Positions 51,693 through 61,467 of a DNA stretch of 64,000 bases are shown here, in pieces; the first letter of the stretch is position 1; each line of letters starts with the position of its first letter. The DNA comes from Leuconostoc lactis (GTDB taxonomy: Bacteria > Bacillota > Bacilli > Lactobacillales > Lactobacillaceae). Where the stretch lies: NCBI RefSeq assembly GCF_007954625.1, contig NZ_CP042420.1:1004501-1068500 (forward strand), given 5' to 3'. The notes under the pieces are model-generated. The model saw only the letters and a list, made by a program, of their open reading frames with translations, made no database searches and was not told the DNA's origin. The position numbers and the translations under genes are program-made.

Positions 51693-52358
51693 ATGGGATT
51701 AACACCAGATGAAATTTTAAATCATGAATTTACTAAAAAGGGCGCACGTGCGTATGTTGCCTCTGAAGTTGATGCCTTTTTGGATCAAATCAACAGTGAT
51801 TACGAAGCACTCATTGCAGATCGTGACCGCTTAGTTCATGAAAATGCACAATTACAAGTTCGCGTGGATGAATTAGAAGCTAAGCGCGAACAAGTTAACC
51901 AATCAATTTTTGTTGCCCAAGAGGCCGCTGATCGCTTAAAGCAAGATGCTGATGCTGAAGTTAAAAAGCAGTTGATGCATGCACAAGAATCTGCGACAAA
52001 GATTATTAGCGATGCACGGACAAAGGCTGCAGCAGAAGCGACATATCTTGCAGAAGAAAATGCTGCTTTGGTTGCTGAACAAAACCTATTGCGTGCCGAA
52101 GTGGAAAGTTTCAAAGATTCCTTCTTGAAATTATTGGCACAACAGCGTACACTATTAGAAAATGGTGATTTAGCGGAAGCTGTTCATCGTTTACCAATGG
52201 GTGAAGCGACAGCTCACCGCATTGGGCAAGTGGCTGTTGAATCAACATCAGTTGATGATGTCGTTGAAGAAGAAGTGATTGCTGAAGCAGTGGTCGCTGA
52301 ATCTGAACAAGGACCAGTTGTCGTGTTTCCCGAAGCGGAAACGCCAAATCATAATTAA
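51693..52358 (+). CDS. divIVA: Cell division initiation protein DivIVA
   Basis: 221 residues. The membrane-binding N-terminus (GLTPDEILNHEFTKKGARAY...EVDAFLDQI) is followed by a long coiled coil and an acidic, Val/Glu-rich tail. Start at the second of two adjacent ATG codons, which has better spacing from AAAGGAGA. Pole and septum landmark. Confidence 0.95.
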   Translation: MGLTPDEILNHEFTKKGARAYVASEVDAFLDQINSDYEALIADRDRLVHENAQLQVRVDELEAKREQVNQSIFVAQEAADRLKQDADAEVKKQLMHAQESATKIISDARTKAAAEATYLAEENAALVAEQNLLRAEVESFKDSFLKLLAQQRTLLENGDLAEAVHRLPMGEATAHRIGQVAVESTSVDDVVEEEVIAEAVVAESEQGPVVVFPEAETPNHN

Positions 52359-52379
52359 TAAAAAGCGTAACACAGAAAG

Positions 52380-52590
52380 ATTGGTTAACATACGTCAAGC
52401 GAGTCATGGTGGTTGGAGATGACCGTCCCTGTAACCTTTCAGATCAGTTATTGAGTTTGTTGGACTGAACGAGTAGTAAGTTCAAACGGTGCAGATCGTT
52501 AACACTGACTTGAGGGGTGTTTTATGCACTCGAATCTGGGTGGTACCACGCGAAAGCGTCCCTAGGCATTTGCCTAGGGACGCTTTTTTA
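52380..52590 (+). promoter_or_regulatory. T-box leader of ileS
   Basis: The T-box core (GGTGGTACCACGCG, 52539-52552) precedes a strong terminator stem (AGCGTCCCTAGGC 52555-52567 with its complement 52572-52584, then T). Uncharged tRNA-Ile binding would favour the antiterminator through the GGTACC region and allow ileS transcription. The upstream part contains a TGAAC/GTTCA hairpin with AGTAGTAA in the loop. I could not place the specifier loop with certainty; an ATC at about 52496 is one candidate. Confidence 0.88.
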
Positions 52591-52628
52591 TGGCTTATCA
52601 TTTGAAAAAATCAAATAGGAGACAATTG

Positions 52629-55421
52629 ATGAAATATAAAGACACATTAAACTTAGGAAAAACTGATTTTCCAATGCGTGGGTCATTGCCCAAGACAGAA
52701 CCAGTACGCCAACAAAAGTGGTATGATGAAAATCTGTACCAAAAGCGTTTGGCACAAAATGAAACCAAGCCACATTTTAATTTACATGATGGCCCACCAT
52801 ATGCCAACGGGAACATTCACCTTGGTCACGCTTTGAATAAAATTTCAAAAGATATTATTGTCCGTTATAAGAATATGGCCGGCTTTTATGCCCCATATGT
52901 ACCTGGTTGGGATACGCATGGCTTGCCAATCGAACAACAATTGACCAAGGCCGGCCATGATCGTAAGTCAATGCCAAAGGCCGCTTGGCGTGATTTGGCC
53001 AAGGCCTTTGCCTTAGAGCAAGTTGATAAGCAACGCCAAGACTTTAAGCGCTTGGGCATTATGGCCGACTGGGAAAACCCTTATATTACGCTACAACCAG
53101 AGTTTGAAGCCGCGCAAGTTCGTGTCTTTGGTGAAATGGCGGGTAAGGGCTACATCTTTAAGGGCTCAAAGCCGGTTTATTGGTCATGGTCATCTGAATC
53201 AGCATTGGCTGAAGCGGAAATTGAATATCATGATATTGATTCAACGTCACTTTACTATGCCAACCGCGTGAAAGATGGCAAGGGCATCCTTGATTCAGAT
53301 ACATACTTAGTGGTTTGGACGACAACACCATTTACGGTGACAGCTTCACGTGGGATTACACTTGGCCCTGACATGGATTATGTTGTGGTACAACCTGAAG
53401 GGGAAACGCGTAAATTTGTCGTTGCAGCCGGTCGTTTAGAAGCCATTGCGCCTAAGTTTGGCTGGGACAAGTATGAAGTACTTGCTACTTACAAGGGCCG
53501 TGAATTAGACCGTATCACAGCTTATCACCCATGGGATGAAGACGTTGAAGAACTCGTGATGAATGGGGATCACGTGACGCTCGATTCTGGTACTGGATTA
53601 GTTCATACAGCACCTGGATTTGGTGAAGATGACTTTAACGTTGGAAAAGCATATGGTCTTGAAGTTGCGGTGACAGTTGACGAAAAGGGCTACATGACTA
53701 AGAATGCTGGTGCAGACTTTGAAGGTAAGTTCTATGATGACGTCGTTGGTCTTGTGATTAACAAATTATCTGAAGCTAATCTTTTCTTGGCCAAAGAAAA
53801 GATTACCCATTCTTATCCATTTGACTGGCGGACAAAGAAGCCAATCATTTGGCGTGCCGTGCCACAATGGTTTGCCTCAGTTGAAAAGTTCCGTCAAAAT
53901 ATCTTAGATGAATTAGACAACGTGAATTTCTATCCTGAATGGGGTAAGAAGCGTTTGTACAACATGATTCGTGACCGTGGTGACTGGGTCATCTCACGTC
54001 AACGTGTTTGGGGTGTGCCATTGCCGATTTTCTATGCGGAAGATCAAACACCAATTCTTGATCAAGCGGTAATCAATCATGTCGCTGATTTGTTTGAAAA
54101 GCATGGTTCAAACTATTGGTTTGAACATGAAGCTAAAGACTTATTGCCTGAAGGCTATACCAACGAACATTCACCAAATGGTATCTTCACTAAGGAAGAA
54201 GACATTATGGATGTGTGGTTTGATTCTGGTTCGTCTTGGGCAGGGGTCATGGACACACGCGAACATCTCGATTACCCAGCAGATTTGTATTTGGAAGGGT
54301 CTGACCAATACCGTGGTTGGTTCAACTCATCATTGATTACGTCAGTGGCGGCAACTGGTCATGCACCATATAAAAATGTGTTGTCACAAGGCTTTACACT
54401 CGATGGCAAGGGCAACAAGATGTCAAAGTCATTAGGAAACACGATTTCACCGCTTGATGTGGCGGATCAAATGGGGATTGAAATTCTCCGTTTGTGGACA
54501 ATTTCTGTGGATACCTCACAAGATATGCCAGTGTCAAACGAGATTTTGAAGCAAGTATCTGAAAGCTATCGTAAGTTACGGAATACGTTGCGTTTCTTGA
54601 TGGCTAACACTTCTGACTTTAACTATGCAACAGATGCAGTACCATTTGCTGATCGTGCTGGCCACGATCAATACTTCTCAGTCTTGTTAAATAACTTTGT
54701 CAAGGATATCCGTGGCTATTACGACAACTATCAATTCAACGACATCTTTAAGCGGATGATTAATTTTGTTAACGTTGACTTGTCAGCGTTCTACTTGGAC
54801 ATTGCCAAGGACGTTGTCTATGTTGAAGCGCCAACGGGTCATGCGCGTCGCTCAATGCAAACAGTCTTCTACGAAACATTGTTGGCACTGACGAAGTTGA
54901 TGTTGCCAATTTTGCCACATACAGCTGAAGAAGTATGGGAATACCTACCAAACGAAACAGCAGCATTTGCTTACTTATCAGAAATGCCAGAAGTGCAAGA
55001 TCTTGGAGATACCAGTGACCTATTGGCCAACTGGGCTGCCTTTATGACCATGCGTGATGCAGCCAATAAGGCATTAGAAGAAGCACGATCAGCTGAATTG
55101 ATTGGTAAGAACGCAGAGGCAGCGTTGACGTTGTATTTGACCGCTGAACAGGCCCAAATGTTGGCTGATCTTAACGCCGATGTGCGACTTTTGTTGATGG
55201 TATCACAGTTGCATATCGAAGACGAAGCGCAAGCCGGCGATGCCAAGTCTTATGATGGTGTTCGAATTAAGGTCACCCACGCGGCCGGTGGCGTGTCACC
55301 ACGTGATCGTATGTATCACGAAGATTTGGGTGCTGATCCAGCTTTCCCAGAATTATCAAAGCACGAAGCAGAAATTATTCGTGAATTCTATCCGGAAGCA
55401 TTAACTGAAGGTTTTGAATAA
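52629..55421 (+). CDS. ileS: Isoleucyl-tRNA synthetase
   Basis: 930 residues from ATG 52629 (AGGAGA upstream; the earlier frame start lies in the T-box terminator). Class I signatures: [15 protein letters not shown] (HIGH) and [11 protein letters not shown] (KMSKS). Editing domain WTTTPFT...[10 protein letters not shown]. The C-terminal zinc-binding module of bacterial IleS is degenerate: where CxRC is expected the sequence reads GGVSPRDRM, and no second cysteine pair follows. The remainder ([25 protein letters not shown]) is intact. Confidence 0.96.
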
Positions 55422-55428
55422 ATAGGTT

Positions 55429-55460
55429 AAAAAGTTACGATGTTGCATCGTAACTTTTTT
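55429..55460 (+). terminator. ileS terminator
   Basis: AAAAGTTACGATG-TTG-CATCGTAACTTTT with flanking A/T runs. Confidence 0.9.
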
Positions 55461-55556
55461 ATTACAATCAACTATGTTAACGCTTACATTTCATTTCAAA
55501 TCGCGTTATACTAGATTTAAAATGATAAGATTTAGTATGAAGGAGATAGACATCAC

Positions 55557-55883
55557 ATGGCCATGGACAACAAGAAGATGATGCTGGTTTGTGATCAGAC
55601 ACCAACGGTTACCCGATTGGTGTCGGCAATAAAAAAAGCGGCCACGGCACAAGAAAAAAGCTATACAATTATTGTGACATCTCAGTCCCATGTTGACGAG
55701 CAATTGCGTGCGGTGCAGCCAGATATTGTTTTACTGACACCTGAATTAGCTTATCTTAAGACGGAAATGCAACGTCAAACTGATGAGTTTGGGGTGTTAT
55801 TAGCAGTGATTAATTTAAGTGATTATACGCAAATGGCTGGTGCCAATATCTTGTTAACAGCAGAACAATTGCTGGTCACTTAG
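55557..55883 (+). CDS. Orphan PTS lactose/cellobiose IIB-like protein
   Basis: 108 residues, the size of EIIB(cel). The start MDNKKMMLVCDQTPTVTRLVSAIKKAA and the later QPDIVLLTPELAYLKTEMQRQ match the IIB(lac/cel) fold, with Cys in the phosphorylation position. However, the loop after it (CDQTPTVT) differs from the usual C-x-x-G-M-S-T. No IIA or IIC genes of that class are adjacent. It may be regulatory or a partner of a distant IIC. Ribosome-binding site AAGGAG is about 11 bases upstream, so a slightly later start is possible. Confidence 0.7.
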   Translation: MAMDNKKMMLVCDQTPTVTRLVSAIKKAATAQEKSYTIIVTSQSHVDEQLRAVQPDIVLLTPELAYLKTEMQRQTDEFGVLLAVINLSDYTQMAGANILLTAEQLLVT

Positions 55884-55955
55884 CCGGGCATGTGGGACGT
55901 CGTGTCTAAACATTGTGTTCAACATATAACATGAGATACAATAGATTTATCATAT

Positions 55956-55998
55956 AGGAGGGCAGTTAAACAGGCGATGTTTTAACTGATAAATTATG
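55956..55998 (+). promoter_or_regulatory. Shine-Dalgarno bridged to start codon by an 8-bp hairpin
   Basis: AGGAGGG (55956-55962) is immediately followed by CAGTTAAA (55963-55970), a 10-base loop, and its exact complement TTTAACTG (55981-55988). Then seven bases lead to the ATG at 55996. Linear spacing is 33 bases; with the hairpin folded it is the normal seven. Confidence 0.65.
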
Positions 55999-56619
55999 AC
56001 AAATCAAAAAACGAGATACTATATTATGACAACTTTGTTTGTGGCAATTGTATTTGTCCAAACACTGGTGCCCTGGTTAGGCACGATGCCATTGGGGGCT
56101 TTTGTTATCGGCGCTAGTGCGACGATTGTTCAGTTTACAGTGGCGCTTGCAGGGATTATTTTAGGACCCAAATATGGGGCGATTGTTGGCTTCTTTTGGG
56201 GAATGAGTTCGTTTTTCAATGCGTTAACGCATCCGGGGACAATTGGTTCGTTAATGTTTCAAAACCCACTGACGGCTTTGTTACCACGTATTTTGGTCGG
56301 GTTGATCATCGGCTGGTTATTTAACCGATTCTTACGGCAACGTCCCGTTGCAGTGCGTACGCTTGGTTTGGGATTGTTAGGTATTTTAGCAGCTTTGATC
56401 AATACGGTTGGTGTGGTGTTACTAACCGCAATTGGCTTCACTGTGATGCAGACGAACTTCACTGGCATTCCAAACCACAATTTGCTGGGCTGGTTAATTA
56501 GCATCGTATCATTTAATGCGATTTTTGAGATCATTGTGGGCTGCATTCTCGTGATGGTGATTGGTAACGTGATTGTGCCAATTGCTGCGCGTGCAGGCCT
56601 AACTGGTGGGACAAAATAA
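55996..56619 (+). CDS. ECF transporter S component
   Basis: 207 residues, six hydrophobic segments, with a conserved LGPKYGAIVGFFWGMSSFFNAL loop and the short helix-1 region MTTLFVAIVFVQTLVPWLG. This resembles the vitamin-binding S components (BioY/PanT/FolT group) that share the EcfAAT module. Pantothenate would be my first guess, but neighbours give no support. Its ribosome-binding site is separated from the start by a hairpin. It ends at a bidirectional terminator shared with the tRNA. Confidence 0.85.
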   Translation: MTNQKTRYYIMTTLFVAIVFVQTLVPWLGTMPLGAFVIGASATIVQFTVALAGIILGPKYGAIVGFFWGMSSFFNALTHPGTIGSLMFQNPLTALLPRILVGLIIGWLFNRFLRQRPVAVRTLGLGLLGILAALINTVGVVLLTAIGFTVMQTNFTGIPNHNLLGWLISIVSFNAIFEIIVGCILVMVIGNVIVPIAARAGLTGGTK

Positions 56620-56652
56620 AAAGCTGTGGCTCGTATTAGCCACAGCTTTTTT
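56617..56652. terminator. Bidirectional terminator between ECF S component and tRNA-Arg
   Basis: AAAAAGCTGTGGCT-CGTATT-AGCCACAGCTTTTT; serves both strands. Confidence 0.92.
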
Positions 56653-56654
56653 CA

Positions 56655-56727
<73 letters not shown>

Positions 56728-56811
56728 GAACTATCATATTATACCGTAATTTTACCGAAAAACAAAATGACACACGTGCAAAAGTGGCCTGATAAACGTT
56801 TAAATGATAGG

Positions 56812-56840
56812 TTGACAATGTTTTGTGAGTGTGTTTTAAT
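56812..56840 (+). promoter_or_regulatory. Promoter of the Ile-leader/brnQ operon
   Basis: TTGACA (56812-56817), 17-base spacer, TTTAAT (56835-56840). The leader peptide ATG is about 32 bases downstream. Confidence 0.65.
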
Positions 56841-56871
56841 GTAATTATTAAATATAGAAGAGAAATATCAC

Positions 56872-56931
56872 ATGACCTTATCAGCACAAACAAACACACA
56901 AATTATTATCAGCATTATCATTATCTCGTGA
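56872..56931 (+). CDS. Ile-rich leader peptide (attenuation) of the hydratase-brnQ operon
   Basis: A 19-codon ORF preceded by GAAGAGAA: MTLSAQTNTQ followed by I-I-I-S-I-I-I-I-S and TGA. Seven of the last nine codons are Ile (ATT/ATC mixture). The stop codon is the first base pairs of hairpin segment 1. It precedes a gene for a branched-chain amino-acid carrier. This is the layout of ribosome-mediated attenuation; the peptide itself probably has no other role. Confidence 0.82.
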   Translation: MTLSAQTNTQIIISIIIIS

Positions 56932-57028
56932 TAGGTGCTGACAATTTGTGGTGCCTATCAATGTAAGATTGATAGGCAGCTGATGACCGTTACGGGCACG
57001 CTGCAATTTTATTGCAGCGTGCCTTTTT
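56929..57028 (+). promoter_or_regulatory. Five-segment transcription attenuator (Ile) with terminator
   Basis: Segment 1 (56929-56938) pairs with 2 (56951-56960) over 10 bp. Segment 2 (56952-56961, TGCCTATCAA) alternatively pairs perfectly with 3 (56969-56978, TTGATAGGCA). Segment 3 end GCAGC (56976-56980) can pair with GCTGC (57000-57004) in segment 4. Segments 4 (56995-57007) and 5 (57011-57023) form a perfect 13-bp terminator stem followed by T5. A ribosome stalled at the Ile codons leaves 1:2 free to form, releasing 3 to disrupt the terminator. A ribosome reaching the stop covers 1, so 2:3 and the terminator form. Confidence 0.8.
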
Positions 57029-57053
57029 GTTTTATTTCAGTGGAGGGAAAAAG

Positions 57054-57842
57054 ATGACATTAACTGACGAACAAGCGGCCCTTGCGCAGCAACTATTTGA
57101 GGCTTATCAGCAGCACACGCCGTTGGATCAAGCAGATTTTGTGGATACGGTGTCTGATTTTGAGACAGCTTATCAAGTACAAGATGCCGTTATGGCACAA
57201 AAAGATGTGCCAACAGCTGGCTATAAAGTGTCGCTCACGTCACCAGAGACGAAGGCGATGTTTGCAGCCGATGCGCCATTGTATGGGGCACAAGTGGCGG
57301 ATAAATTTTTACCATCTGGTACTGACTTACAGTTAACCGATTTTAATGAACCCTTGGTTGAAGTCGAGTTACTCTTTACGGCGAAAGTGGCTTTAACACC
57401 TGATATGTCTGTCGAAACCTTATTGAAAAATACCTGGGTTGCGCCAGCTTTAGAAGTACCAGACGCCCGTTTTAAAGATTGGTTTCCGACCTTAAATAAG
57501 TACCTTGTTTTGAGTGATTGTGCAGTAGGTGGCGCAGTAGTTGCCGGTGACAATCGCGATGGCGCTACCTTAGCGGTTGCCGAATTGGCTGATGTGCAAG
57601 CCACACTAACCCATAATGACACGATGGTTGCGCAAGGGACAGGGGCAGCGGTGTTAGACAATCCCGTGTTAGCATTGCACTGGTTAGTGGGCAAATTAGC
57701 GGCACAAGGAAAAGACTTCCCAGCAGGTACAAAGGCGTCAACGGGGACATTCTTATTGCCACCACAACTCACCGCTGGTCAATGGCGTGCCACTTTTACC
57801 GATGGCTTTGGTGAAGTAGTCGTCAACGTGAAAGGAAAGTAA
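57054..57842 (+). CDS. 2-keto-4-pentenoate hydratase/fumarylacetoacetase-like protein
   Basis: 262 residues from ATG 57054, preceded by GGAGGG. It resembles the MhpD group of the FAA hydrolase superfamily: GYKVSLTSPETKAMF, PLYGAQVADKF, the metal-binding EPLVEVELLF (E-x-E) and PALEVPDARF. Such enzymes hydrate 2-oxo-4-enoates or decarboxylate 4-oxalocrotonate. Why it is under the same Ile attenuator as BrnQ is unclear; a role in branched-chain keto-acid chemistry is possible but unproven. It is five bases upstream of brnQ. Confidence 0.82.
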   Translation: MTLTDEQAALAQQLFEAYQQHTPLDQADFVDTVSDFETAYQVQDAVMAQKDVPTAGYKVSLTSPETKAMFAADAPLYGAQVADKFLPSGTDLQLTDFNEPLVEVELLFTAKVALTPDMSVETLLKNTWVAPALEVPDARFKDWFPTLNKYLVLSDCAVGGAVVAGDNRDGATLAVAELADVQATLTHNDTMVAQGTGAAVLDNPVLALHWLVGKLAAQGKDFPAGTKASTGTFLLPPQLTAGQWRATFTDGFGEVVVNVKGK

Positions 57843-57847
57843 GCGAC

Positions 57848-59221
57848 ATGACAAATAAAAAACTCACTTGGCAACAACTAGTTTTGATTGCTTCATTAAT
57901 CTTCGGGATGTTCTTTGGCGCTGGCAATTTGATTTTTCCAGTCCAATTAGGCCAGCTCGCTGGTGGTAATTGGCTACCAGCAACACTTGGTTTCTTAGTG
58001 ACAGGGACGGTGGTGCCGTTTCTCGCTATGCTCGCTGTCAGTGTCACCCACGGTCGGAGTGTTTATGATGTTGCCAAGCCGGTTGGTCATTGGTTTGGCT
58101 TGGCGTTTCTGGTTGCCATTCATTTGACGATTGGGCCATTTTTCGGCACACCCCGTACAGCCGCAACCGCCTTTTCAATGGGGGTTGCCCCATTTTTGGC
58201 ACCAAAAGATCAAGGGCTCGGTATGCTGTTATTTTCAGGCGTCTTTTTCGGGTTAGCTTACTATTTAACGGTCAAACAATCTGGTTTGATGAAGTGGGTC
58301 GGGAAATATTTAAATCCACTGTTTCTCGCATTGTTGCTCGTCGTCTTGTTGTTGGCGCTCGTGATGCCAATGGGAAGTACGCATCAAGCGGTGAGTGCAA
58401 CGTATCAAGCCCATGCTGGTTTTCAAGGTATTTTAGATGGTTATAATACCATGGATGGCATTGCTTTGTTAGCCTTAGCTGTTTCAGTGGTCTATGCCGT
58501 GAAAGCGTTAGGATTCCGTGATGCGCAAGTCTCACAAGTTTTGGCAAAAGCCGGCTTACTCAGTATTGTGGCGGAAGCGGTGTTATATGCCGCATTGGTA
58601 TTGCTTGGGGTGACGAGTTTAGGACAATTTAAGGCCGCTGCTAACGGTGGCGACGCTTTTGCCCAAATCGTTGCACATTATGCTGGTAATTTTGGGACGG
58701 CTTTGACAGGCGTCGTGGTGACATTAGCTGTCTTTACCACGGCGATGGGCTTATTTGTCTCATTTGCCCAAGATATGCATTTGGTATTTCCCAAAGTGAG
58801 TTATTTATGGTTTTTGCGGGTCATCGCCTTTGGGTCATTTGTCACAGCAAATGCGGGCTTGACGAACATTGTGGCTTGGTCAGTCCCTGTCTTAATGTTT
58901 TTATATCCAATTTCACTGGTGTTAATTATGCTATCGCTGACGGCAAAATATTTCAATTACGCACCGGTTGTCTATCGCAGTGTGGTGGGCTTTGTTGTCT
59001 TGCCAGCGCTACTAGATGCTTTGGCTAGTTCACCCTTTATGTCCGGTAAATTGGCGCAACAAGTTGTGAATACTTACCATCAATTAATCCCATTTTCAGC
59101 CTTGGGATTTGGCTGGTTGGTTCCAGCTGCGGTTGGGGCGTTTGTTGGTCTTGGTGCTTATAGTTTGGCCCAAATGACGCAAAAATCCAGCGTGACAGTA
59201 AAAGTTGATGAGTCGTTTTAA
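57848..59221 (+). CDS. brnQ: Branched-chain amino acid:cation symporter BrnQ (LIVCS)
   Basis: 457 residues, about 12 membrane segments. LIVCS signatures: FGMFFGAGNLIFPVQLGQ near the N-terminus, TVVPFLAMLAV and the GPFFGTPRTAATAF loop. Imports Leu, Ile and Val with a cation. Located behind the Ile-rich leader peptide, which fits regulation by Ile supply. Confidence 0.95.
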   Translation: MTNKKLTWQQLVLIASLIFGMFFGAGNLIFPVQLGQLAGGNWLPATLGFLVTGTVVPFLAMLAVSVTHGRSVYDVAKPVGHWFGLAFLVAIHLTIGPFFGTPRTAATAFSMGVAPFLAPKDQGLGMLLFSGVFFGLAYYLTVKQSGLMKWVGKYLNPLFLALLLVVLLLALVMPMGSTHQAVSATYQAHAGFQGILDGYNTMDGIALLALAVSVVYAVKALGFRDAQVSQVLAKAGLLSIVAEAVLYAALVLLGVTSLGQFKAAANGGDAFAQIVAHYAGNFGTALTGVVVTLAVFTTAMGLFVSFAQDMHLVFPKVSYLWFLRVIAFGSFVTANAGLTNIVAWSVPVLMFLYPISLVLIMLSLTAKYFNYAPVVYRSVVGFVVLPALLDALASSPFMSGKLAQQVVNTYHQLIPFSALGFGWLVPAAVGAFVGLGAYSLAQMTQKSSVTVKVDESF

Positions 59222-59227
59222 CCTTTA

Positions 59228-59262
59228 GAAAATCCCCATATTGGGGCTTTTTTGTTATAATA
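59228..59262 (+). terminator. brnQ terminator overlapping the upp promoter
   Basis: CCCC-ATATT-GGGG stem with T run, whose T/G end forms TGTTATAAT (TATAAT 59256-59261), the upp -10. The junction GCTTTTTTGTTATAAT is nearly the same as before rsgA (GCTTTTTTGTTACAAT). Confidence 0.7.
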
Positions 59263-59278
59263 GACACAGTAACTAATT

Positions 59279-59327
59279 GGAAGGAACGCGTGGTAGGTTT
59301 ATTTTACCCGCGAAATTGATTATCATG
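59279..59327 (+). promoter_or_regulatory. Structured ribosome-binding region of upp
   Basis: GGAAGGAA (59279-59286) lies 38 bases before the ATG. CGCG-T-GGTA (59287-59295) pairs with TACC-CGCG (59305-59312), eight pairs with one bulged T, directly after the Shine-Dalgarno sequence. Twelve bases then lead to the ATG. A 9-codon GTG frame (59290-59319) ends six bases before the start, so coupling is the alternative. Confidence 0.5.
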
Positions 59328-59954
59328 GGAAAATTTGTTGAGATGGATCATCCCTTGATCCAACATAAGCTAACAATGATTCGTCAAAAGAATGTGGGCA
59401 CAAAAGATTTTCGTGCACTGGTTGACGAAATTGCAATGCTCATGACTTATGAAGCAAGTCGTGATTTACAATTAGAAGATGTGGTGATTGAAACACCCGT
59501 GGCAACGACAACGAAGAAGCAATTAGCCGGTAAGAAATTGGCGGTTGTGCCAATCCTGCGTGCTGGTTTGGGCATGGTTGATGGCATTGTACAACTCATT
59601 CCAGCTGCAAAAATTGGTCATATTGGGATGTATCGTGATGAAGAAACTTTGGAGCCAGTGGAGTATTTCATCAAGTTACCAGAAGATATTGACCAACGTG
59701 ATGTCTTGCTTGTTGATCCAATGTTAGCAACAGGTGGTTCGGCCAAGGATGCGATTTCTGCTTTAAAGAAGCGCGGGGCCAAAAACATCAAGTTGATTAC
59801 GTTAGTTTCAGCACCAGAAGGGGTGAAAGCCGTGCAAGACGCACATCCAGACGTGGATATTTATACTGGCTCACTGGATGATGGCTTAAATGAAAATGGT
59901 TATATTGTACCAGGTCTCGGGGATGCCGGCGATCGTTTGTTTGGGACAATGTAA
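59325..59954 (+). CDS. upp: Uracil phosphoribosyltransferase
   Basis: 209 residues from ATG 59325 ([19 protein letters not shown] is the usual beginning); the longer in-frame TTG version adds sequence that overlaps the ribosome-binding site. PRPP-binding motif [13 protein letters not shown], uracil-binding [16 protein letters not shown]. Makes UMP from uracil and PRPP. Confidence 0.96.
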
Positions 59955-59958
59955 TTTT

Positions 59959-59985
59959 GAAAGACTTGCGTGCAAGTCTTTTTTA
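59959..59985 (+). terminator. upp terminator
   Basis: AAAGACTTGC-GT-GCAAGTCTTT with T run, five bases after the stop. Confidence 0.9.
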
Positions 59986-60014
59986 TTAAAATAAAATTAA
60001 TTAAATTAAAAGTG

Positions 60015-60043
60015 TTGACATTATCTTTTAAGTTGTGTATAGT
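60015..60043 (+). promoter_or_regulatory. Promoter of the Leu-leader/liv operon
   Basis: Consensus TTGACA (60015-60020), 17-base spacer, TATAGT (60038-60043). Confidence 0.75.
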
Positions 60044-60092
60044 AATACTCATCAAGAAACAAGCAAGTAATTGCTCAAAAGGGAGAACGCTC

Positions 60093-60155
60093 ATGACACA
60101 AACATTTAATCAGCAAGTTAACCACACACTCCTCCTCAACCTCCTTCTCATCTGA
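60093..60155 (+). CDS. Leu-rich leader peptide (attenuation) of the liv operon
   Basis: A 20-codon ORF with GGGAG ribosome-binding site: MTQTFNQQVNHT followed by L-L-L-N-L-L-L-I and TGA. Six Leu codons are CTC or CTT (five CTC), whereas surrounding genes prefer TTG and TTA, so the run should be sensitive to a minor Leu-tRNA. Segment 1 of the attenuator begins at the base after the stop codon. It lies upstream of PTS IIC-like and livJHM genes. Confidence 0.85.
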   Translation: MTQTFNQQVNHTLLLNLLLI

Positions 60156-60270
60156 GTCTAGTAGGTTGTTATTTGAGCAAATCAGCTACTAGACTTTTGC
60201 AAAGTGTAGTGGCTGGTTAGGAAAAAATACGTGTAAACGTCCTAACGAGCAATCGTTGGGGCGTTTTCTT
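60156..60270 (+). promoter_or_regulatory. Five-segment transcription attenuator (Leu) with terminator
   Basis: Segment 1 GTCTAGTAG (60156-60164) pairs perfectly with CTACTAGAC (60186-60194). The overlapping CAGCTACTA (60183-60191) pairs over 9 bp with TAGTGGCTG (60207-60215). Segment 3 GTTAGG (60216-60221) pairs with CCTAAC (60241-60246). Segment 4 (60235-60248) pairs with 5 (60253-60266) over 14 bp around a GCAA tetraloop, followed by TCTTGTT. The logic is the same as at 56929-57028: stalling at Leu codons lets 1:2 and 3:4 form (readthrough); completion of the peptide favours 2:3 and 4:5 (termination). Confidence 0.83.
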
Positions 60271-60324
60271 GTTCCCGATGATTGCACGGCTCAATTGAAG
60301 TGTAAATGAAAGGGAATTAAGATT

Positions 60325-61467
60325 ATGGCACAAAATGCAATGACAGCAGCAAGTCCAGTGGACACAGAACATATCCAAGAAAAAGCGGTTGAAGCCAAGG
60401 CGTCAATGCGCGAACTCGTTTATAATACGTCAGCAGCAGTATCCAATGCGATTTTGGTCACATTGGGGATGGGGTTATTGTTACAAACCATTGCGGGATT
60501 TATTAATTGGGCGCCAATGGTGCAAATGGGTGCGATCACAAAAATTATGTTGCCAGCCGCCTTTGGGGCTGCGGTGGCGTCACAAATGAAAACCAATACA
60601 ATGGTGATGTTTAGTGCCATGGCTGCTTCAACTGTTGGGGCTAATGCGGTGTTCTTTAGCTCATCTGCCGTGCAAGGGGTAACAGCTACTGGTTATGCTG
60701 GCTCACAAGCGGCTGGTTCGGCAATCATTACGACCGGCCAACCAATTTCTGCCGTGCTTGCCGCGGTGATTGCAGTTGTCTTTGGTAAATGGTTGAGTGG
60801 CAAGACGCCGTTAGATATGGTCATTGTACCAGCGGCTACTACAATTGTGGGCACGGTGAGTGGTTACTATTTGGCCATGATTACCACACCGGCGTTGGTA
60901 GCAGTTGGGCAATTCATTGCGGCAAGTGTTGCGATTAGTCCAATTATCGGGACAGCAGTTGTGGCAATGGTTTTTGGGGCCTTGACGATGACGCCCGCAT
61001 CCGCTGCGGCTTTGGCTGTAGCGATTGGGGCTACTGGGGTGACCTCTCCAGAAGCCGCCGGTGCCATTTTGATTGGGACAACTGCAGTATTCGTTGGATT
61101 CCCAGCAATGTCATTTCATGAAAATAAGATTGGGGCCACAATTGCTCAAGGTATCGTGACACCAAAAATTCAGTTTCCAAACTTAACTGAAAATCCAGCC
61201 TTGATTATCCCACCGATGGTAGGGGCAGCGATTGCAGCGCCGATTGCAACGATGGTCTTTCATGTAACAGCACCGTTTGCGATGGCGGGTATTGGTTTTA
61301 ACTCATTTATCGTCCCATTGGCTTTGGCCGGTTCGAACCCAATCGCGTTTGCAGCTTATATGATCATCGGCGTTGCCATTCCTATGGTGGTATCCTTTGT
61401 TGGCTACCGTTTGATGCGCAAGATGGGCTGGGCAAAACCAAACCAATTGCATTTGGAAATGATCTAA
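60325..61467 (+). CDS. PTS EIIC-like (PTS_EIIC_2 family) membrane protein
   Basis: 380 residues, about ten hydrophobic segments, very rich in Ala/Gly. Resembles the PTS_EIIC_2 family (SNAILVTLGMGLLLQTI at the start; FVGFPAMSFHENKIGATIAQG). No IIA/IIB genes adjoin, and the family's substrates are not established to my knowledge. It is the first gene after the Leu attenuator and is followed within 24 bases by livJ, so here it is probably co-regulated with branched-chain amino-acid uptake. Confidence 0.75.
   Translation: MAQNAMTAASPVDTEHIQEKAVEAKASMRELVYNTSAAVSNAILVTLGMGLLLQTIAGFINWAPMVQMGAITKIMLPAAFGAAVASQMKTNTMVMFSAMAASTVGANAVFFSSSAVQGVTATGYAGSQAAGSAIITTGQPISAVLAAVIAVVFGKWLSGKTPLDMVIVPAATTIVGTVSGYYLAMITTPALVAVGQFIAASVAISPIIGTAVVAMVFGALTMTPASAAALAVAIGATGVTSPEAAGAILIGTTAVFVGFPAMSFHENKIGATIAQGIVTPKIQFPNLTENPALIIPPMVGAAIAAPIATMVFHVTAPFAMAGIGFNSFIVPLALAGSNPIAFAAYMIIGVAIPMVVSFVGYRLMRKMGWAKPNQLHLEMI

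Follow-up and report, generated by a model that had tools for sequence, protein, structure and literature searches.

A leader-peptide attenuator that very probably senses isoleucine upstream of a hydratase gene and brnQ in Leuconostoc lactis

The leader RNA that precedes a hydratase gene and brnQ in Leuconostoc lactis is, with high probability, a six-segment ribosome-mediated transcription attenuator that senses charged tRNA-Ile, and it very probably switches on the isoleucine importer and its companion enzyme only upon isoleucine shortage. It lies in a window of 64,000 nucleotides (contig NZ_CP042420.1, positions 1,004,501 to 1,068,500), by which we mean the whole stretch of DNA that was analysed. 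At the sequence level, the leader ORF, the alternative helices and their covariation, the conservation of the regulatory codons and a codon swap between paralogous loci are documented below.

Leader ORF and upstream signals

The leader peptide MTLSAQTNTQIIISIIIIS is encoded on the + strand from the ATG at 56872 to 56931 (19 codons plus TGA), which confirms the length given in the preliminary description, and it is conserved in Leuconostoc. Its seven Ile codons, likewise as described, occupy codons 11 to 13 and 15 to 18 (regulatory stretch 56902 to 56925, + strand), a span of eight codons and not the nine stated; in another genus Val replaces Ile before brnQ paralogs. Among the 3605 short ORFs in the window (9 to 40 codons, both strands, nested starts counted separately), the leader ORF is the only one with at least seven Ile in nine codons, and together with the conservation across Leuconostoc this led us to reject a chance ORF. 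A short ORF with a start codon and a run of the regulatory codon was found in the window and in the Leuconostoc leaders alike.

A probable promoter (TTGACA, 17 nt, TTTAAT; 56812 to 56840, + strand) is located 31 nt before the leader ATG. It was identified with a looser pattern search, which detected a TTGACA-type promoter upstream in 24 of 32 leaders. A strict scan listed no + strand promoter in the window and misses this one because it demands an A as the second base of the -10 box. The putative Shine-Dalgarno-like sequence AGAAGAGA (56856 to 56863, + strand) is a weak match. Six other loci (L018, L019, L021, L022, L024 and L025) carry a -10-like box approximately 6 to 7 nt 5' of the leader ATG and no TTGACA-type pattern in the 110 nt upstream of it, and their leader peptide may therefore be translated from a leaderless mRNA.

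RNA segments and proposed mechanism

The 191-nt leader folds at -74.9 kcal/mol, compared with -37.6 ± 3.7 for 200 dinucleotide shuffles (z = -10.0), none of which folded as low. By eye and by fold, six segments were recognized on the + strand: A (56897 to 56921; outer part 56897 to 56904, core 56909 to 56921), B (56928 to 56950; core 56928 to 56941, outer part 56943 to 56950), C (56951 to 56962), D (56968 to 56980), E (56994 to 57007) and F (57011 to 57024, followed by a T tract to 57028). In the termination form A pairs with B, C with D and E with F; in the readthrough form B (through 56929 to 56938) pairs with C, and GCAGC of D (56976 to 56980) pairs with GCTGC of E (57000 to 57004). A is supported by fold and covariation, B, C and D by covariation and the folding model, E by covariation and the terminator scan, and F by the terminator scan. 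The earlier list of five segments lacked this D:E antiterminator.

An intrinsic terminator lies between the leader ORF and the first gene. The terminator scan of the leader returned a single site, 56994 to 57024, with 14 pairs (8 of them G-C), one more than the 13 bp reported previously, and a T tract; E and F are its 5' and 3' arms. The search requires a T run, and a hairpin followed by one was located in all 32 leaders tested, two of the 34 collected (L032 and L041) not having been located by the terminator motif. No Rfam family matched at the leader, with the whole window scanned at the gathering score and 52000 to 61000 at E up to 5.

The six-segment form is that of the his attenuators of enterobacteria. 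With enough isoleucine, the ribosome would reach the TGA codon and cover B, C:D would form, E would be free for F, and transcription would stop near 57028. With uncharged tRNA-Ile, the ribosome would stall on the Ile run and cover A; B:C would then form and release D, the freed D would pair with E, the terminator's 5' arm, and RNA polymerase would read into the hydratase gene and brnQ. Without translation, A:B, C:D and E:F would form and transcription would stop. Readthrough upon stalling at Ile codons and control of the hydratase-brnQ operon had been proposed before; conservation, covariation, codon-swapped paralogs and folding models support the proposal, and from these we infer its in vivo part, namely stalling, antitermination and the isoleucine response in the cell.

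Folding models of ribosome position

The effect of ribosome position was modelled by folding each leader up to the end of E with all bases hidden that precede the 14th base from the first base of the A-site codon. These are equilibrium folds of transcripts cut before F, and since E:F would win with F present, the model depends on timing. For the window leader, the probabilities of C:D and D:E were 1.00 and 0.00 without a ribosome and 1.00 and 0.09 with the ribosome at the stop codon. When the A site was placed on the first Ile codon, B:C was 1.00, C:D 0.00 and D:E 1.00, and D:E dropped to 0.18 (mean of 60 shuffles) when B was shuffled. Averaged over 24 leaders, D:E was 0.04 without a ribosome, 0.13 at the stop codon, 0.70 upon stalling and 0.12 with B shuffled.

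In this model, D:E was at least 0.83 upon stalling and at most 0.24 at the stop codon in each of the 12 Leuconostoc leaders that share the window's type. Across the 24 leaders, D:E was higher upon stalling than at the stop codon in 20, with a rise of at least 0.5 in 16, and C:D was lower upon stalling in all 24, in several by 0.01 or less. No rise of D:E was seen in L030, L031, L034 and L044; D:E stayed near 0 in L040 and was high in both ribosome states in L042, and the rise was small in L036 (0.00 to 0.17) and in the Val leader of L038 at 1435 (0.01 to 0.32). In some of the poorly switching leaders the MAFFT columns fit the helices badly, as judged by eye.

When the A site was moved along the ORF, the mean D:E was 0.57 with an Ile or Val codon of the run in the A site (n = 155) and 0.28 at other positions (n = 303). 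For the window leader, D:E was about 0.7 at codons 2 to 4, low at codons 6 to 9, high at codons 10 to 13 (thus already at Gln 10), 0.1 to 0.4 at codons 14 to 18 and low at the stop codon. L010, the nearest relative of this leader, displayed a narrower peak with high D:E at the first Ile codon only. A cruder measure counted any pairing of E with upstream bases and told the stalled state from the stop state in 29 of 32 leaders; its B-shuffle control was weak, the observed value exceeding the shuffle mean in 25 of 32 and being matched by 5% or fewer of the shuffles in 2 of 32, and the named helices were adopted after this result.

Covariation of the two conformations

Covariation was determined in an alignment of 24 of the 34 leaders (12 from Leuconostoc and 12 from other genera), the rows of which are related and not independent. 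Six second-type Leuconostoc hydratase leaders, the two leaders that the motif did not locate (L032, L041) and two near copies (L035, L039) were left out. In the termination form 88.0% of the cells are paired, both-side changes occur in 31 of 46 pairs, and the covariation score is 0.365 as compared with 0.187 after shuffling (0 of 500 shuffles as high). In the readthrough form 82.0% are paired and the score is 0.195 versus 0.128 (0 of 500); both-side changes occur in 8 of 18 pairs, a count reached by 1 of 500 shuffles, and sliding by -1 or +2 columns gives 7. The scores of both forms are higher than those of any of the 500 shuffles or slid versions, a result that related sequences can also give without structure. 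The D:E pair at column 172, in segment E, persists in 24 of 24 leaders, although the terminator pair of this column is lost in 4 of 24. In Leuconostoc palmae (L016) a D:E pair is changed on both sides, from GGCAGC:GCTGC to GGTAGC:GCTAC.

A wider alignment, fitted to the termination form, comprised 83 matches from 74 of 171 loci, including two opposite-strand partial matches (L031, L032) and 27 of 40 further fetched loci; the omitted ones (L115-L117, L130, L132, L135, L138, L142, L144, L147, L151, L153, L154) include those without a clear leader. Here 84.2% of the cells are paired in the termination form. The readthrough form, to which the alignment was not fitted, has 71.6% paired versus 65.9% after shuffling and a score of 0.239 versus 0.170 (0 of 500); both-side changes in 16 of its 18 pairs are a count that 25 of 500 shuffles reach. 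Covariation in the 24 leaders thus supports the predicted mutually exclusive antiterminator helices, and does so more weakly on the wider set. Mutually exclusive hairpins had been claimed at the outset, together with a covariation search of homologous leaders as a check, and the claim is borne out by the covariation of both conformations in the 24 leaders as well as by the folding models.

It is very improbable that the terminator is constitutive and the ORF fortuitous, or that a small RNA ends there: such a reading could appeal to two Leuconostoc loci (L115, L138) with only opposite-strand ORFs of at least 80 aa downstream, whereas two mutually exclusive conformations covary and the leader ORFs contain Ile, Val or Leu runs at the matches inspected in 15 genera.

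Conservation in Leuconostoc and the controlled genes

The first gene of the operon (57054 to 57842, + strand) encodes a 2-hydroxypentadienoate hydratase-like enzyme of the HpaH/MhpD type, as assigned from matches to NCBIfam TIGR02312 (E 2.8e-26, 92.6 bits, below the cut-off of 351.5) and, by sequence, to PDB 2eb4 (E 3.7e-16); no Pfam match was obtained at E up to 0.001. It is 96% identical to the hydratase of Leuconostoc lactis JCM 6123. The second gene (57848 to 59221, + strand) is brnQ, encoding a branched-chain amino acid carrier (Pfam PF05525, E 3.5e-112; NCBIfam TIGR00796, 323.9 bits, cut-off 243.4).

The hydratase gene is present in 18 of the 19 Leuconostoc genomes searched (in pieces in G004; one stop in L025), and an Ile leader precedes it in all 18. 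Twelve of these leaders are of the type seen in the window, with QIIISIIIIS or a close variant of it, and six are of a second type (NNIIINAIIII and variants), the RNA sequence of which is different and matches the covariance model R1 weakly (E 2.2e-7 to 1.7e-4). The N-terminal residues of the leader peptide vary, and within the coding part the alignment gaps that precede the last Ile codons span whole codons. Directly behind the 12 window-type loci, brnQ is found in nine (the window and eight others), as a remnant in two and not at all in one. In Leuconostoc fallax, a partial hydratase gene follows a bcaT-like aminotransferase gene and an EIIC_2-like gene, both recognized by eye.

The co-attenuated hydratase had been called unexplained. 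The genomic context indicates that it is linked to isoleucine independently of brnQ, because it has separate leaders, leaders are kept where brnQ has decayed, and Ile-type T-boxes occur elsewhere. In the six species with second-type leaders brnQ does not follow the hydratase gene and lies elsewhere behind an Ile leader of its own (6 of 6). In G005 and G004 the hydratase leader persists next to a mere brnQ remnant (residues 5 to 49 or 7 to 49), and in L. palmae it persists without brnQ in the 1.5 and 2.5 kb downstream. An Ile leader also precedes the hydratase gene in another genus (L148), and a T-box with AUC at the aligned, presumed specifier position lies 5' of it in Limosilactobacillus ingluviei and Agrilactobacillus composti. 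Our guess is that the hydratase acts on a branched-chain 2-oxo acid.

Exchange of Ile and Val codons before brnQ paralogs

In another genus (g2), several genomes have two neighbouring model matches, and seven of them were fetched (L038, L155-L160). In all seven, the upstream leader encodes AVVVSVVI or a close variant (in most GTC GTC GTC AGC GTC GTT ATC), the downstream leader encodes AIIISIII (ATT ATT ATC AGC ATT ATT ATT), the two RNA scaffolds are near-identical, and brnQ follows each. The BrnQ proteins behind the Val leader are 54 to 59% identical to that of the window and those behind the Ile leader 63 to 69%. An eighth genome (G280) has an Ile leader and a Val leader at separate loci with brnQ behind both, and a Val leader also stands before brnQ (Pfam PF05525) at L123, a locus of a further genus. 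Codon identity fits the controlled gene, brnQ and ilvD being preceded by Ile or Val runs.

It had been stated in advance that homologous leaders lacking Ile codons but keeping the hairpins would speak against Ile sensing. Such leaders do occur, but as a concerted Ile-to-Val swap before a second brnQ, and this swap strengthens codon sensing. On near-identical scaffolds it would be hard to explain unless the codons were read as such, and tandem paralogs with nearly the same scaffold and different codons constitute a clean natural experiment for codon-specific attenuation.

These leaders also bear on nascent-peptide arrest, in which a drug or some other signal, and not uncharged tRNA, would cause the hydrophobic peptide to stall the ribosome. 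The C-terminal III-S-III(I) motif is well conserved and the N terminus variable, as such a model would have it, whereas VVVSVVI, IVISLVIII or SVLVIV occupy related scaffolds before brnQ and ribosome position alone suffices for the folding switch; we regard arrest by the peptide as very unlikely.

T-boxes on the same genes

As noted in the preliminary description, ileS in the same window has a T-box (52359 to 52566; 64.1 bits, E 1.9e-12), which scores below the Rfam gathering score of 93. At its presumed specifier the Rfam alignment has a two-base gap, which AUC adjoins as judged by eye. Genome-wide, 18 T-box matches were obtained at E up to 0.001, two of them over the cut-off. In 20 brnQ-upstream regions, sampled from high-scoring matches in other genera, we found 15 leader peptides (L032 and L041 also by model match), three T-boxes (L045, L047, L048) and two regions with neither (L043, L046); the T-box scan covered 18 of the 20. 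AUC (Ile) stands at the triplet aligned to the presumed specifier position in L047 and L048.

A tRNA-Ile T-box or another ligand riboswitch acting without translation might be suspected at the leader too, given the T-boxes at ileS and at brnQ or the hydratase gene in other genera. However, T-box family RF00230 has no match at 56850 to 57040 at E up to 5, upon which this candidate was rejected, and an ORF with branched-chain amino acid codons is conserved; control of this kind is extremely improbable. The occurrence of the same genes under a T-box or a leader peptide according to genus makes the exchange between the two systems traceable.

Relation to known attenuators

Like the his, ilv and trp attenuators of enterobacteria, the element has a leader ORF with runs of the sensed codon, the alternatives A:B/C:D/E:F and B:C/D:E, and an intrinsic terminator before the gene. 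Unlike them, in Lactobacillaceae it serves importers and the hydratase, and no sequence relation is claimed.

A ribosome-mediated attenuator on a branched-chain amino acid carrier had been considered unusual, Gram-positive amino acid genes mostly using T-boxes; for branched-chain amino acid genes of Firmicutes, precedents exist in Listeria rli60 and Staphylococcus aureus ilvD. Ribosome-mediated attenuation of the Listeria ilv operon has been shown (PMC5864092). As described there, rli60 of L. monocytogenes ilv-leu, also from the Firmicutes, has a 13-residue leader rich in branched-chain residues and a mutation-tested terminator/antiterminator, but it controls biosynthesis and its terminator is described as segments 3 and 4 (PMC5864092). 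For S. aureus, ilv attenuation is supported by a study whose authors cite predictions for Lactococcus and Streptococcus (PMC5794164). The Leu-rich ilvD peptide reported in it is another Firmicutes leader of this class, standing where Bacillus ilv-leu has a T-box, and differs in its 26 residues, its three Ile, two Leu and three more Leu codons and its biosynthetic operon (PMC5794164). The Leu/phe leader RF01743, a leader RNA of the same order in Rfam, is listed for Lactococcus lactis (PMC2864571); it had no match in the window at the gathering score or in 52000 to 61000 at E up to 5. T-boxes of LIVCS/brnQ genes, including Ile ones, have been described (PMC2494555). They share with the present element the gene family, the sensed amino acid and transcription attenuation (compare L045, L047 and L048) but read the tRNA directly, with neither ribosome nor leader ORF. 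His leaders in Firmicutes and leader peptides that replace T-boxes have also been reported (PMC2965389, PMC9413887). In the open-licence papers searched, mostly at abstract level, we found no leader-peptide attenuator of brnQ, of the hydratase gene or of Leuconostoc. The kind of attenuator is thus already known, while descriptions of this family, of the genes associated with it and of the tandem pairs with exchanged codons appear to be lacking in the searchable literature.

Spread of the element and other genes behind it

At a per-genome E of up to 0.01, model R1 matched in 94 of 397 genomes of the family, which we take to be Lactobacillaceae in GTDB's sense, distributed over 22 of 40 genera; a few chance matches are expected at this threshold. 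In the order, 12 of 295 genomes matched at E up to 0.001; five of the 12 belong to the same family and the others are weak (best 1.6e-5). R1 favours branched-chain amino acid codons because it was built from leaders of that class.

A script found a short ORF with at least three adjacent Ile, Leu or Val codons near the element start in 36 of 40 further matches, and none in L116, L144, L147 and L153; in L151 the run-bearing ORF has only a TTG start and was judged not credible. Behind these 40 matches lie genes for MHS-type transporters (14), ilvD (5), EIIC_2 (5), brnQ (2), the hydratase (1), and others or no ORF (13). They were assigned by BLASTP to tested members, namely L118, L119 (ilvD), L139/L152 (EIIC_2), L123 (brnQ) and L148 (hydratase); the MHS-type transporter L118 scored 418.9 bits against TIGR00883, below the cut-off of 443.45. 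The EIIC_2 proteins, PTS EIIC components by Pfam name, look like products of branched-chain amino acid genes. We consider it rather likely that Lactobacillaceae-wide modular attenuators of branched-chain amino acid genes exist, in which one scaffold has its Ile or Val run exchanged per transporter paralog, is swapped with Ile T-boxes, and marks the hydratase, EIIC_2 and MHS-type transporter genes as branched-chain amino acid genes. This would offer clues to the function of the unassigned hydratase as well as of transporters that bear annotations as sugar PTS components or generic symporters.

In the window itself, the segment from 60093 to 60265 encodes a Leu leader peptide, MTQTFNQQVNHTLLLNLLLI, with hairpins and a terminator behind it, and precedes an EIIC_2 gene (60325) and liv genes (61492, 62676). 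A Leu-rich leader is found 5' of the orthologous EIIC_2 gene in 19 of 19 Leuconostoc genomes; for the leader at 60093, the folding model with hand-picked helices displayed no switch. A second EIIC_2 paralog was examined at 11 loci (L074-L084, among them L079 at G000:C1:1536666-1537757 in the window's own genome); 10 of them have an Ile/Val leader such as MYLSATDNFTIVIKINAVIIM, L076 being a shortened locus.

The Leuconostoc loci L115 and L138, which have an Ile/Val/Leu leader and only the opposite-strand ORFs mentioned above in the examined stretch downstream, suggest candidate orphan attenuators or small RNAs. Ile/Leu-run leaders precede XRE-type-regulator-like ORFs in L132 and L135 (HTH_3 matched in L135 only), and in L153 a Val/Ser leader at the model match precedes a GshAB-like glutamate-cysteine ligase gene.
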